Origin: Rhodothermus sp. | Lineage (GTDB): Bacteria; Bacteroidota; Rhodothermia; Rhodothermales; Rhodothermaceae | Assembly (NCBI GenBank): GCA_026989375.1 | Contig: JALSJJ010000229.1 | Coordinates: forward strand, 1 to 41,078 | Direction of reading: 5' to 3' | Length of the DNA stretch: 41,078 nt | Shown: positions 116 through 5,261 of the stretch, in pieces | How positions within the stretch are numbered: the first letter of the stretch is position 1 | Layout of the letters: each line of letters opens with the position of its first letter | The notes under the pieces: generated by a model | The model's input: the letters and a program-made list of their open reading frames with translations, nothing else | Told to the model about the DNA's origin: nothing | Databases searched by the model: none | Program-made: the position numbers and the translations under genes

Positions 116-943
116 ATGGCCACCCGACCACAACCCTTGATCACCCTGACCACGGACTTCGGCACCCGGGATGCCTATGTGGCGGCCATGAAGGGCGTAC
201 TGCTCGGTCTGGCTCCGCAGGCGCGCCTGGTGGACATCACGCACGAAATTCGACCGCAGGACGTCATGGAGGCCGCTTTTGTGCTCCGCGAAGCCGTGCC
301 GTATTTTCCACCCGGTACCATTCATCTGGTTGTTGTGGATCCGGGTGTGGGTACTGAGCGGCGCGCCGTGGCACTCCGGCACCATGACCACTGGTTTGTG
401 GGACCGGACAACGGGCTTTTTACGCTCGTGCTGGGCACCGAGCAACCCGACGAACTCGTCGAGCTCAACCGCCCGGAGTGCTGGCGCACGCCCACACCGA
501 GCCAGACATTCCACGGACGCGACATCTTTGCACCGGTTGCCGGCCACCTTGCTGCCGGACGTTCCCTGCAAGAAGTCGGAACACCACGGACCCGGCTAAC
601 CACCCTCCGCTGGATGGAACCATCGGCCAACAACGAAAGCATCCTCGGCTGGGTGGTTCACGTAGATCGCTTTGGCAACTGCATTACCAACATTTCGCGG
701 GAGCTGTTTGAGCGCTACCGCTCCGGGCGTTCGTTCAAATGCTATGTAGGCAGCACCCCGTTTACCCAAGTGCACCCCACCTATGGCGCCGTAGCCCCGG
801 GTGAAGCATTGCTGCTGTTTGGCAGCAGCGATTTACTCGAAATCGCTGTCAATGGAGGTAATGCAGCCGAATTACTCGGCATTCACCAGGGCACACCCGT
901 TCATATTATTTTTGAACAAAAACCGACACGCAAGCCTTCATGA
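116..943 (+). CDS. SAM hydrolase / SAM hydroxide adenosyltransferase (DUF62 family)
   Basis: The 275-residue product has the full length and motif order of the DUF62 (SAM hydroxide adenosyltransferase) family. These cytoplasmic enzymes use water or hydroxide to split S-adenosylmethionine into adenosine and methionine. Visible motifs are TTDFGTRDAYVAAMKG near the N-terminus, VVDPGVGT and GPDNGLF in the middle, HGRDIFAPVAGHLAAG, and DRFGNCITNI opening the C-terminal beta-barrel domain. Relatives include the halide-using fluorinase and chlorinase; nothing here suggests halide use, so hydrolysis is the default call. The ATG at 116 is the first in-frame start and has no strong Shine-Dalgarno site. 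Its stop overlaps the next start as ATGA (940-943), so the two genes are translationally coupled. Confidence 0.9.
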   Translation: MATRPQPLITLTTDFGTRDAYVAAMKGVLLGLAPQARLVDITHEIRPQDVMEAAFVLREAVPYFPPGTIHLVVVDPGVGTERRAVALRHHDHWFVGPDNGLFTLVLGTEQPDELVELNRPECWRTPTPSQTFHGRDIFAPVAGHLAAGRSLQEVGTPRTRLTTLRWMEPSANNESILGWVVHVDRFGNCITNISRELFERYRSGRSFKCYVGSTPFTQVHPTYGAVAPGEALLLFGSSDLLEIAVNGGNAAELLGIHQGTPVHIIFEQKPTRKPS

Positions 944-2115
944 ATGCCTCACAGGCTACCCCACAATCGCTGCTCGCCTACCTGGACGAGCTCTATCGCC
1001 TGGCGCAACTGTTAACATCTGAAGCAGAAACAGCTACCCGGTTGATCCGGGACGTGTACCGGGAAGCCCTGGCCTCGCCTCCACCTGCTGATCAGCTTCG
1101 GACATGGCTCATTGCACGGCTCCTTCAGCATGCCCGAACAACTACCGAAACAACTAACCAGGCTATCCTTTCAGCACGTCGAGAACTGGGCGAAAGCCTT
1201 CTGGGACGCGTGTTACCGGCTGCCCTCACGCTGCTTCCGGCACGGGACCGACTCTGGTTGTTCCTGTGCGACGTCCTGGAGCTGTCTCCTGAGACAGCGG
1301 CCATGCTCCTTCAGGAATCGCCTGCAGGCTACACACAGGCCCGCCATGCCCTGCATACAGCGCTGCGGCGATACCTTACGCCCGGACAGTTTGCGCTGCT
1401 GGAATTTGGCCTGTCCGACGCACAGCTCCGCCCTCACCTGCGGCAGGCATTAGGCCGTTTGCTCCAGCCTCCCCCGGGCCCGCTGCGCACCGAACTGTTA
1501 AACCTGGCCAGTGGGAAGCCATCCCTTGCCGAGGGGGCCCTTTCGTCGGCTACTCGCCCTTCCGCCACCCGCGTGCTTGTCGCCGTGCTGATCGTACTCC
1601 TGGCGGGACTGGTCGGCTGGCTGGTCTGGAAGGGCGCTCACCCCACACCGCCACCACCCACGACGGCCTCCGCTGACCTGATTCGCCGCTCTGTTGAACT
1701 AACCGCTTCGCTGACCGTCGAACAACCTTTTACGCGTCCAGCCGACGCCGAACGCTATCTGGCCCGCCAAGGCTGGCGCGTCGTCATCCCCGACATTGCT
1801 GACGCCCGGCTCATCGGTCTGGCCCGCGCCCCGGTACTGCCTGAATTAAGCGTGCCTGTACTGCTCTTTGAAGACCAGACCCGCGACCGCACCCTAGCCA
1901 TCTACCTCTATACCTATGCCCTGCTGGATCGCTATCGGGAGCAGCTGGCGCTCAGCCCCGACGTACTCCGCCAGATCGAAGAAGAGCAACACTTCGACCT
2001 GCACGTACTGGACCGCCAGCAGGTACTTATCTGGCGCTATCGAGACGATATCTACGTGGCTGTCACCGAAGGCGATGCGGCCGACCTACGCGAGCGGATC
2101 GCTTTCCCTTCCTGA
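940..2115 (+). CDS. Membrane-anchored ECF sigma-like / anti-sigma-like fusion protein
   Basis: The N-terminal half looks like a divergent ECF sigma factor. Residues about 12-65 follow the region 2 pattern (LYRLAQLLTSEAETATRLIR), and residues about 96-145 follow region 4 (LLPARDRLWLFLCDVLELSP, then a helix resembling the usual recognition helix). A single membrane segment lies at about 211-231. The remaining roughly 155 residues should be periplasmic and end in short strands such as VLIWRYRDDIYVAVTEGDA, resembling C-terminal domains of membrane anti-sigma factors. The acidic residues usual in region 2.2 are replaced by T, T and R, so core RNA polymerase binding may be weak or lost. It is coupled by ATGA to the SAM hydrolase gene. 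The domain reading is by eye; a plain hypothetical membrane protein is the alternative. Confidence 0.6.
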   Translation: MNASQATPQSLLAYLDELYRLAQLLTSEAETATRLIRDVYREALASPPPADQLRTWLIARLLQHARTTTETTNQAILSARRELGESLLGRVLPAALTLLPARDRLWLFLCDVLELSPETAAMLLQESPAGYTQARHALHTALRRYLTPGQFALLEFGLSDAQLRPHLRQALGRLLQPPPGPLRTELLNLASGKPSLAEGALSSATRPSATRVLVAVLIVLLAGLVGWLVWKGAHPTPPPPTTASADLIRRSVELTASLTVEQPFTRPADAERYLARQGWRVVIPDIADARLIGLARAPVLPELSVPVLLFEDQTRDRTLAIYLYTYALLDRYREQLALSPDVLRQIEEEQHFDLHVLDRQQVLIWRYRDDIYVAVTEGDAADLRERIAFPS

Positions 2116-2122
2116 GTCGGCC

Positions 2123-3457
2123 TCAACGTAATGGTAACGTAATGCGAAACGTTGAGCCCTTTCCGGGGCGCGATTGTACCAGCGCAATCGCCCCCCCGTG
2201 ATACTCCTCAATAATCCGTTTGGCCAGACTGAGACCCAGTCCCCACCCCCGTTTTTTGGTGCTGTACCCTGGTCGAAAGATGTTCTTCCACTGACGCCGC
2301 TCGATCCCTCGCCCGTTATCTTGCACTTCAATCTGCACCACATTGCCCTGCACACGCGCACGCACCTCAATCCAGCCGTCCGGTCCCTCAATGGCGTCCA
2401 GTGCATTCTTGAGCAGGTTCTCGATCACCCATTCAAACAGTTCGGCGTTGAGCGGCAGGCGGATATCTTCGGGAACCTGCACCGTCAACACCACCTGCTT
2501 GCCCAGGCTGGGCATGCGGCGACGGATGTAGTCAGCCGTATTCTGGATAACCGGCGCCAGCGACTGCACTTCCAGGCGAGGTAGGGAACCGATCTCTGAA
2601 AAGCGCCGGGCTACCCGCTTCAGGCGTGCGATGTCTTTTTCGATCTCTTCAAGGGCTTCGCGCTGCTGTTCAGGCCTCAGACTGCTGGTGCGTAACAGCT
2701 CGACCCAACCCATCAGGCTGGAAAGTGGCGTGCCGAGCTGGTGTGCCGCCTCCTTGGCCATCCCTATCCATAGGCTTCGCTGCTCGCTACGTCGCACGTA
2801 CGAAAAGCCCAGATACCCCACCAGAATGAATATCCCCATAACAAAAAGCTGCACATAGGGAAACACCCGAAGCTGACGGATCAACCGCGACTCGCCATAG
2901 TGGACGTACTGCACCAGCTCGGTATCGTCAAAGCGAATCCGAATGGGAATGGGGCGATGCACCTGATCCATTTCGGCCACCAGTTCGCGCAAACGTGCAA
3001 TGGCCTGCAGCGAATCGGCAGGCGACAGTCCCGTCAGCGAATCCGGTACCGGCACATTGCGCCAGAAGAGCGGCTGCAGGCCCGTCGAGTCGGTAATGAT
3101 CGCCGGAATATCGAAGGCACCTTCGAGCACAATCTCGCTGGCAAGCGTTACGTCGGAAGTAGGTGGCATCGTACGCGCCCAGGCCAGTGCCGCCTGATAG
3201 CGCCCAACGATCCCTTCATCGGCAACCAGCCGCGCAAGCTGCAACTCCAACTCCTGAAATACGTCGATGTAGGGATTTACGTGTTCGGTGGTAGCCAGTT
3301 GCTCCTGAGCGGCTGCCCAGAGATTTACCAGAAACTCTTCTCGCTCCCGTAGCCGGTTGGCCAGCCAGTTGGTGTAGGCAACCGAGGTGACAGCGATCGC
3401 CACGGCAGCGATCACCAGGCCCAGCTTTAAGTTCACCGAAAGACGGTAAGCCTTCAT
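2123..3457 (-). CDS. Orphan membrane sensor histidine kinase
   Basis: This 444-residue kinase has a first membrane helix at about 11-29, a periplasmic sensor of about 165 residues with no recognisable fold, and a second helix at about 203-220. The HisKA domain follows, with the phosphoacceptor His239 in KEAAHQLGTPLSSL, then a HATPase domain with N box NLLKNALDA (about 347-355), G1 box DNGRGI and G2 box GWGLGLSLAKRI. All catalytic motifs look intact. I use the ATG at 3457 because it directly precedes the membrane helix; the reading frame extends to 3601, but that extension looks non-coding and crosses the terminator region of the upstream gene. No response regulator is adjacent, so its partner must be elsewhere. 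It is convergent with the sigma-like gene, 7 bp apart. Confidence 0.88.
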   Translation of the reverse strand: MKAYRLSVNLKLGLVIAAVAIAVTSVAYTNWLANRLREREEFLVNLWAAAQEQLATTEHVNPYIDVFQELELQLARLVADEGIVGRYQAALAWARTMPPTSDVTLASEIVLEGAFDIPAIITDSTGLQPLFWRNVPVPDSLTGLSPADSLQAIARLRELVAEMDQVHRPIPIRIRFDDTELVQYVHYGESRLIRQLRVFPYVQLFVMGIFILVGYLGFSYVRRSEQRSLWIGMAKEAAHQLGTPLSSLMGWVELLRTSSLRPEQQREALEEIEKDIARLKRVARRFSEIGSLPRLEVQSLAPVIQNTADYIRRRMPSLGKQVVLTVQVPEDIRLPLNAELFEWVIENLLKNALDAIEGPDGWIEVRARVQGNVVQIEVQDNGRGIERRQWKNIFRPGYSTKKRGWGLGLSLAKRIIEEYHGGAIALVQSRPGKGSTFRITLPLR

Positions 3458-3599: not shown

Positions 3600-3627
3600 A
3601 AAAAAGCGCCCCATGCTGGAGCGCTTT
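3600..3627 (-). terminator. Rho-independent terminator after the CBM48 gene
   Basis: On the minus strand a 10-bp stem (arms 3618-3627 and 3603-3612, one G-T pair) closes a 5-nt loop and is followed by a run of six T. It lies about 20 bp after the CBM48 stop codon and separates that gene from the kinase downstream. Confidence 0.85.
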
Positions 3628-3647: not shown

Positions 3648-3941
3648 CTATGCTACATGCAGCAGGCAGTTCTCACTGAAGAACGGACTGGGCGTATAGC
3701 CGTCGGCCTGCTCATCGTTTACCCAGCGCTCGCCATCAACCAGATAGCGAAATTGATAGGTGCCGGGCTTGAGCACCACCGACTTGCTCCAGAATCCTTT
3801 GTTTCGGTACAGGCGCATGGGATGGGCCGACGGATCCCAGTTGTTGAAATCGCCCACAACGGCCACGCTTTTGTGGGCCACATCGGCCGGTAACCTGAAC
3901 GTAACGCTAATGCCCCGGCTCGTTTTCTTCTTTTCGATCAT
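3648..3941 (-). CDS. Stand-alone CBM48 (glycogen-binding/isoamylase N-terminal type) protein
   Basis: The whole 97-residue protein is one immunoglobulin-like CBM48 domain, the kind found at the N-terminus of glycogen branching and debranching enzymes and in AMPK beta subunits. Characteristic stretches are VAVVGDFNNWDPSAHPMRL (about 26-44) and GTYQFRYLVDGERWVND (about 60-76), carrying the aromatic residues that stack on alpha-glucan. There is no signal peptide and no catalytic domain. It should therefore be a cytoplasmic glucan-binding or glycogen-targeting adaptor; that role is inferred. It is monocistronic, closed by a terminator at 3600-3627, and no glycogen gene lies nearby. The 162-bp gap upstream (3942-4103) shows no confident promoter. 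Confidence 0.85.
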   Translation of the reverse strand: MIEKKKTSRGISVTFRLPADVAHKSVAVVGDFNNWDPSAHPMRLYRNKGFWSKSVVLKPGTYQFRYLVDGERWVNDEQADGYTPSPFFSENCLLHVA

Positions 3942-4103: not shown

Positions 4104-5261
4104 TCAGACCGGCGATGGGTCTGCTACCTGATGCAAGCGTTCGCGAGCCTGTTCGAAGAAGGCATCGTCGCCCAACAGTTGAAGCACCAGTCCCTGTTCG
4201 AGACGCGTCTGGGCCAGGTGATAGAGCACGGCCATAGGCACCTGTTCCATCAACAGCACGACAAAGCGCACGCCGGCGCGATCCTTTCGGCGGGCATAGG
4301 CAGCCACGCTGACCAGTCCGGGAAACAGACCGCTTTCGACGGCCAGGGTCTTGAGACTGGTTTGCAAGGTGTCGGGAAGTGCGTGCTCCAGATAGCGACG
4401 CATGGTGTACCCCCAGGTAGAAGTGTCGGTTGCAATGCGTTGGAGCAGCAGGGCATACGCCTGTGCCGTACCCCGTGGAAAGGTTGCCTGCGCCCGCTCC
4501 CGTTGCGCCCAGAGGCTGAGCCCGGACCCCTGTCGGGCCAGCCGATGCGCCAGTACATTATGGAGACTCGTGTCCTGCACAACCTGCCGCGTCAGTGCGT
4601 AAGGTCCGGCATCACGTTTCGGCATTTCCGGCAGGGCATGCCAGCTCAAAAACAATCCCAGCATCGGAAGGGGCGGCTCCAGCGCCGTAATTCCGAGCTG
4701 TTCGGTCAGCGCGCTCAGCGACGAACGTCCCAGACGCAGCAGCAGGTAGTCATGGGCAGCAGGATCGTTACCTTCCAGCAGTAACCGCACCAGCTGATCC
4801 GTCTGCAGCGTGTCCGCTGTATTCGGCAGCAACGACAGCGCATGCTGATGCACCTGGTCGCCCAGCGAGGGTAAGACGTATCGATTCAGCACGCGGCGGG
4901 GCACCGGCCCGGCCGGATCCAGTCTGCCCTGTTCAATCGCCTCAACATAGCTGGCCAGCAGGAGCAGCCGTGGAAGTCCAGCGACCGGTCGCACGACCGC
5001 CTCTTGAAAGTACAGGCCGGAATCCGGGGCGGCCAGCTCGAAGGCTACCAGCGAAGTCCGATCGGGGTGCCGCTCCAGATAGGCGAGGAGATCCTGCGGA
5101 CTGCGGAGCGTCTCCGCCAGGGCCCGGCCCTCCCGCATGGCCCGCAGATTTTCCAGCATAATGCCAAACGTATCCCGGTAGCGCAGCACGATGATCGCAA
5201 CCGCTACCACCAGCAACCCGGTAGCGATCAGCAGATGACGCTTCAGATTAATTCCGGCCAT
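4104..5261 (-). CDS. Beta-lactamase-fold protein with degenerate active site (pseudo serine hydrolase)
   Basis: An N-terminal membrane anchor (about 8-26) is followed by a domain with the layout of class A beta-lactamase / D-Ala-D-Ala carboxypeptidase-like enzymes. All three catalytic motifs are changed. Where SxxK should precede the long helix the protein has AGLPR (94-98), so Ser becomes Gly and Lys becomes Arg. The SDN position reads GND (164-166), in a context (EGNDPAAHDYLLL) otherwise typical of the family. The K-T/S-G position reads ESG (309-311) before LFPGLVSVAAYARR. It is probably a non-catalytic envelope protein in the periplasm, perhaps a scaffold or peptidoglycan binder. The fold call comes from motif spacing by eye. 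It is not obviously co-transcribed with its neighbours. Confidence 0.6.
   Translation of the reverse strand: MAGINLKRHLLIATGLLVVAVAIIVLRYRDTFGIMLENLRAMREGRALAETLRSPQDLLAYLERHPDRTSLVAFELAAPDSGLYFQEAVVRPVAGLPRLLLLASYVEAIEQGRLDPAGPVPRRVLNRYVLPSLGDQVHQHALSLLPNTADTLQTDQLVRLLLEGNDPAAHDYLLLRLGRSSLSALTEQLGITALEPPLPMLGLFLSWHALPEMPKRDAGPYALTRQVVQDTSLHNVLAHRLARQGSGLSLWAQRERAQATFPRGTAQAYALLLQRIATDTSTWGYTMRRYLEHALPDTLQTSLKTLAVESGLFPGLVSVAAYARRKDRAGVRFVVLLMEQVPMAVLYHLAQTRLEQGLVLQLLGDDAFFEQARERLHQVADPSPV

Follow-up and report, generated by a model that had tools for sequence, protein, structure and literature searches.

Several proteins that join a sigma factor to its membrane regulator, or that carry a sigma-like fold, have been described. 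IutY of Pseudomonas putida (ECF243), which belongs to a TonB-receptor iron system, carries a working ECF sigma factor that is released by Prc and RseP (PMC5411451, PMC8999054). In the Actinobacteria, the ECF48, ECF52 (SCO4117) and ECF53 proteins have an ECF sigma factor fused to a membrane anti-sigma-like extension (PMC8999054, PMC5826349). PhyR of the Alphaproteobacteria, a soluble response regulator that contains a receiver domain, acts as an anti-anti-sigma factor by titrating NepR (PMC8103513). A single-chain sigma/anti-sigma protein as such is therefore not new, since IutY and ECF48/52/53 precede the one described here. In the literature that we searched, we found no sigma/anti-sigma fusion and no membrane pseudo-sigma factor from Rhodothermus.

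The window, meaning the whole stretch of 41,078 nt that was analysed, is one contig (C229) of a Rhodothermus sp. genome of 3.07 Mb in 257 contigs. Near its left end lies a 391-aa open reading frame with the following features and neighbours (AF2, AlphaFold2).

116-943, + strand: SAM hydroxide adenosyltransferase (SAM hydrolase) gene (PF01887, 2.1e-62; PF20257, 9.5e-28), translationally coupled upstream of the fusion gene
940-2115, + strand: fusion protein gene, 391 aa, with a degenerate ECF sigma part, anti-sigma-like helices, a membrane helix and a periplasmic domain (basis: open reading frame and conservation)
961-1137, + strand: residues 8-66, a domain like sigma region 2 (residue table, AF2, hhalign to true ECF sigma factors), with core-binding and -10-binding residues lost
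1138-1203, + strand: residues 67-88, a rapidly evolving linker that joins sigma 2 to sigma 4, with the poorest identity and dN/dS constraint in several pairs
1204-1380, + strand: sigma region 4-like domain, residues 89-147 (Pfam, hhalign, residue table, AF2), with a recognition helix four residues shorter and basic residues lost
1381-1509, + strand: residues 148-190, helices like those of an anti-sigma domain but lacking zinc ligands, a tentative remnant of such a domain
1567-1638, + strand: residues 210-233, the only membrane helix (AF2 helix 210-233; hydropathy peaks at residue 212)
1666-2112, + strand: residues 243-391, a periplasmic domain of alpha/beta type with homology to the periplasmic part of anti-sigma factors in the sister groups
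2123-3457, - strand: convergent sensor histidine kinase gene (PF02518, PF00512), a neighbour at most loci of the order

The stretch 940-2115 is a real gene because homologs are found in all seven genomes of the window's family (one genus) and across much of the window's order. In the family, the homologs are 58-91% identical, nearly full length and free of stops and frameshifts; the protein of one Rhodothermus sp. relative is 74% identical to the window's. The start ATG overlaps the TGA stop of the SAM hydrolase gene (ATGA), and the gap to the convergent histidine kinase gene is 7 nt. The kinase reading frame extends to 3601, and its start is probably the ATG at 3457, judging from homologs that begin MKAYR. 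At nearly all loci of the order that we examined, the fusion gene is preceded by the SAM hydrolase gene on its own strand and is faced by the histidine kinase gene. Neither neighbour is found beside the sister-group anti-sigma genes examined, indicating that the coupling arose together with the fusion or later; it goes back to the order and, as far as sampled, has the same age as the fusion. The coupling to a SAM hydrolase gene, which an earlier note had called unexplained, is thus real and conserved in the order, and we found no mechanism that links SAM hydrolysis to the fusion protein.

Farther along, a 97-aa protein (3651-3941, - strand) contains little beyond a CBM48/AMPK glycogen-binding domain (PF16561, 6.7e-10), and a 385-aa exported or membrane-anchored protein (4107-5261, - strand) has a sub-threshold Beta-lactamase2 match (PF13354, 5e-4). 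Between the genes of the 97-aa protein and the histidine kinase lies a terminator-like hairpin of 11 pairs that ends in a T tail (3603-3627, - strand); promoter-like and terminator-like sites in the region are no more frequent than expected by chance.

The sequence of the window protein is too diverged to be recognised alone. Searched as a single sequence, it gave no significant Pfam or PDB match and one weak match to a sigma model (E 0.0056), so that profiles were needed for recognition. We therefore built a family profile from 24 diverse members of the fusion family, and this profile is recognisable. Over positions 9-155 it matched solved ECF sigma factors, namely Mycobacterium tuberculosis SigE (6.9e-11), SigL (1.5e-9) and SigH (7.2e-9), and it also matched the sigma-like domain of PhyR (2lfw, E 8.5e-8), more weakly than the true ECF sigma factors. 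Further PhyR matches were NF006623 in NCBIfam and 3t0y in Foldseek. Pfam Sigma70_r4_2 was matched by 9 of the 24 members, and others match NCBIfam ECF sigma models, with E-values down to 2.4e-11. When the family was aligned with true ECF sigma factors by hhalign, regions 2 and 4 were matched in order over 151 columns (98.8% probability, E 9.5e-17).

The AlphaFold2 model of the full protein (mean pLDDT 80) has helices at the positions expected of a sigma factor: 8-12, 15-25, 29-45 and the start of 50-98 in the region 2 part, and 101-112, 117-124 and 129-145 in the region 4 part. Foldseek with this model returned ECF sigma factors (SigE, SigH, AlgU, BldN, sigma E) and PhyR, at E-values of at least 0.006 and with low TM-scores because the multi-domain model was matched as one rigid body. 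A search of 40 genomes of the order with the true sigma profile gave a best match of 5e-29, among ordinary ECF sigma factors, and the fusion protein was absent among the matches listed. Such an absence is to be expected if the functional residues have been lost, and the reverse search therefore adds no support.

The C-terminal half is homologous to membrane anti-sigma factors of the sister groups. Residues ~212-391 aligned with the membrane helix and periplasmic parts of these proteins in hhalign (99.7% probability, E 1.8e-25). The periplasmic domain alone was modelled by AlphaFold2 with a pLDDT of 93 and a pTM of 0.89; by sequence it had no match in the PDB. Its best Foldseek matches were RseB structures, with a TM-score of only 0.40 (E 0.006), and an RseB-like fold is a lead only, as this score lies below 0.5. 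Upstream of the membrane helix, the model contains three further helices (148-157, 160-174 and 180-190), and the whole-family profile matches sister anti-sigma genes from positions 121-186 onwards. Compared with the N-termini of sister-group anti-sigma factors, the helices 148-190 gave an E of 1.9e-4 at a probability of only 48% in hhalign, with the zinc motif absent; they may be the remnant of an anti-sigma domain. The positive-inside rule places the N-terminus in the cytoplasm, with homologs carrying, for example, RRRLRP or RRPRRRPLR just before the helix.

The earlier note had read this gene as a single-chain ECF sigma/anti-sigma fusion with the region 2 and region 4 layout in its N-terminal half and a membrane helix with an anti-sigma-like periplasmic tail in its C-terminal part. 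This architecture is borne out: hhalign, profile searches and Foldseek agree on the sigma layout and point to no unrelated fold, both halves are homologous to separate genes in the sister groups, and no topology was found that places the N-terminus outside.

To compare functional residues, we used positions conserved in both the class-wide sigma factor described below and the other ECF sigma factors of the window's genome, in the numbering of the L062 sigma factor. Among the 24 fusion proteins, the conserved residue is retained in 17% at D34, 21% at Q37, 17% at N66, 8% at Y72, 4% at R73, 17% at R160 and 21% at R163, while positions of the hydrophobic core are retained in 92-100%. The lost positions, from D34 to R163, are those which we take to be the usual core-binding, -10 and -35 contacts of the ECF sigma structure; for region 2.4 and the linker, positions were mapped through an alignment with many gaps, and ECF sigma factors themselves vary. 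The window protein has arginines at both the D34 and Q37 positions of region 2.2, which are core-binding residues of the D-L-V-Q type, and in its genus the recognition helix of region 4.2 has a 4-residue gap.

The loss of acidic residues from region 2.2 had been noted before, rightly, and it extends to regions 2.4 and 4.2. From this family-wide loss, we infer that the sigma part is transcription-incompetent and has lost DNA binding; binding to core RNA polymerase is probably lost as well. The suspicion that the sigma part is inactive is thereby supported at the level of sequence. The other proposal of the earlier note, a sigma factor that works only after cleavage, is not supported, as a released fragment that lacks these residues should not direct transcription.

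These features set the protein apart from the closest known systems. With IutY it shares the arrangement of one chain, an N-terminal cytoplasmic ECF sigma part, one membrane helix and a periplasmic anti-sigma-derived domain. However, its sigma part lacks the functional residues, and its gene is flanked by SAM hydrolase and histidine kinase genes without an adjoining TonB receptor gene; the neighbours found were these two and the CBM48-like protein gene. Proteolytic release in the manner of IutY would here yield a fragment unable to bind promoters. The ECF48, ECF52 and ECF53 proteins contain a ZAS (zinc-finger) domain, and their sigma factor is apparently functional, whereas the Rhodothermus protein has neither zinc ligands nor the functional sigma residues and carries a different extracytoplasmic domain. 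PhyR is alike in keeping the ECF fold with degenerate DNA and core contacts, but it ends in a C-terminal receiver domain where the Rhodothermus protein is membrane-bound with a membrane helix and a periplasmic domain. In the sister family, the class I anti-sigma factors (L061 and L062) are homologous in their membrane and periplasmic parts and differ in having a zf-HC2-type anti-sigma N-terminus and a separate, intact sigma gene adjoining. RseB/MucB, the periplasmic regulators of RseA/MucA, give the best fold match of the periplasmic domain, although RseB is a separate soluble protein.

The history of the fusion can be followed in the sister groups, on the basis of profile scores, presence or absence and gene order. 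In class genomes outside the window's order, the family profile matches two separate genes, at positions ~8-156 and 171-394. One ECF sigma factor is found in the sampled class genomes outside the order at E-values of 1e-63 or better, except in two genomes (G170 and G190). The same search inside the order gave nothing better than 1e-24, and those matches are other ECF sigma factors. With a profile of the N-terminal part of the fusion, 28 of 28 class-wide sigma factors (50-76 bits) outscored all eight ECF sigma factors found in the window's genome (12-49 bits). In the sister family f15, the genes of the ECF sigma and the anti-sigma factor overlap by ~20-55 nt, and the anti-sigma proteins begin with a zinc-type domain with zf-HC2-type cysteines (CRQAQELITAFVDG...HLAGCRNC). 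In other sister families, the two genes lie apart. The anti-sigma N-terminus takes a cysteine-free version in families f16, f17 and f20; their loci (L066-L070) have an orphan anti-sigma-like gene with a homologous periplasmic domain and no ECF sigma gene adjoining.

The overlapping gene pair of f15 likely represents the state before fusion, and fusion of such a pair in the ancestor of the order would be the simplest history. An ECF sigma gene and the adjacent gene of its membrane anti-sigma factor would have been fused in frame, after which the sigma part would have lost DNA binding and, probably, core RNA polymerase binding. The anti-sigma domain would have lost its zinc ligands and shrunk to a few helices.

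In the window's genus, the sigma domains are under purifying selection close to that of the periplasmic domain. In seven species pairs, dN/dS was 0.06-0.32 for sigma 2, 0.07-0.21 for sigma 4 and 0.03-0.19 for the periplasmic domain, with most values in the sigma part at 0.06-0.2 and with relaxed linkers. Because dS is saturated in distant pairs, the close pairs carry the weight (G000/G006, G002/G005 and G003/G005), and they gave 0.11-0.17 for sigma 2 and 0.07-0.16 for sigma 4. Such low values within one genus indicate constraint, the purpose of which is not given by dN/dS.

Elsewhere in the order, the sigma part has been lost. It is absent in members of families f10, f12 and f13, of which f10 and f13 have N-termini that are short or rich in proline, and it is hardly recognisable in some members of f4. 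The f12 proteins, 198 aa long, begin just before the membrane helix, so that the sigma part and the anti-sigma helices are both gone; their genes are flanked by that of the SAM hydrolase and that of the histidine kinase.

L044, 4263-4859: gene with membrane helix and periplasmic domain only
L058, 1528-2124: gene with membrane helix and periplasmic domain only
L059, 4374-4970: gene with membrane helix and periplasmic domain only

The anti-sigma-like helices are missing wherever the sigma part is missing, and this joint loss is consistent with the two folding together as a single module. In Roseithermus sacchariphilus (CP030158.1; L112, 2635-4284 and 2799-4154), the sigma part and the membrane/periplasmic part are in two reading frames, which would reflect a frameshift, a gene that was split again or an error in the sequencing. 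In a second genome (G037; L064, C1 560186-561429), the halves abut in different frames near the membrane segment.

We consider it probable that the protein is a transcription-incompetent fusion, retained as a sensor in the membrane that carries a pseudo-sigma module. It would span the membrane once, with a sensor domain in the periplasm and, on the inner side, a folded module of pseudo-sigma and anti-sigma helices, and the module may be kept as the cytoplasmic protein-interaction part of the sensor. In class I anti-sigma domains, helix 4 packs on sigma region 2, and the anti-sigma-like helices may pack on the sigma part in the same way (PMC7406223). A putative decoy role of the sigma part is possible. 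A tethered, functional sigma factor that is freed on a periplasmic signal by site-1 and RseP cleavage, as in IutY, is a very unlikely alternative. The domain order, the similar length (374 aa in IutY), the cytoplasmic N-terminus and the site-2-type M50 proteases in the genome would suit it, but these proteases are universal (14 of 14 control genomes) and carry no weight as evidence of cleavage. Moreover, the sigma domain of IutY works, whereas here the -10, -35 and core contacts are lost family-wide, the genus has the gap in its recognition helix, and several families discard the sigma part altogether. That a helical domain came to resemble sigma regions 2 and 4 by chance, as an independent invention, is hardly credible. 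The near-empty single-sequence searches are what it has in its favour; against it stand the profile evidence over both regions in order, the independent fold matches to ECF sigma factors and the sigma/anti-sigma operon of f15. The hhalign alignment to ECF sigma factors and the profile matches to solved ones refute it for practical purposes.

The preferred reading, a sensor that keeps its pseudo-sigma module, has to be weighed also against decay. The sigma part could be a relic that is being lost, persisting by inertia or as an aid to folding or topology, with only the periplasmic domain and its anchor of importance. The families without a sigma part, the poorly recognisable f4 members, the two genomes with split frames and the higher conservation of the periplasmic domain all speak for this; repeated loss and the frame splits argue that the module is dispensable, which counts against the preferred reading. 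We nevertheless regard decay as unlikely, because both sigma domains are under purifying selection comparable with that on the periplasmic domain in the seven species, no stop or frameshift occurs in the genus, and the hydrophobic core is kept in the 24 diverse members. By analogy with PhyR, the trapped sigma part might also have been recruited as a membrane-bound sigma mimic that works as an anti-anti-sigma switch: a signal in the periplasm would expose or hide the pseudo-sigma factor, which would so capture or free the anti-sigma factor of another ECF pathway. Candidate anti-sigma genes adjoin other ECF sigma genes of the window's genome (L082 and L083); we think such a switch quite unlikely.

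Sigma/anti-sigma fusions and a sigma-like mimic were each known already, and what is new here is the combination of both in a fusion that is found order-wide and yet appears transcriptionally incompetent. An ECF sigma factor that is conserved elsewhere in the class is absent from the whole order, where it would survive only as a transcription-incompetent domain joined to its anti-sigma factor. The steps from gene pair to fusion to lost sigma part can be read in living genomes, from the overlap in f15 to the families without a sigma part. Annotation pipelines that name such proteins sigma factors would be wrong. The family offers a clean case for asking whether signalling can make new use of a dead sigma domain, and, if the switch described above were true, it would be transmembrane sigma mimicry, a counterpart of the soluble PhyR.
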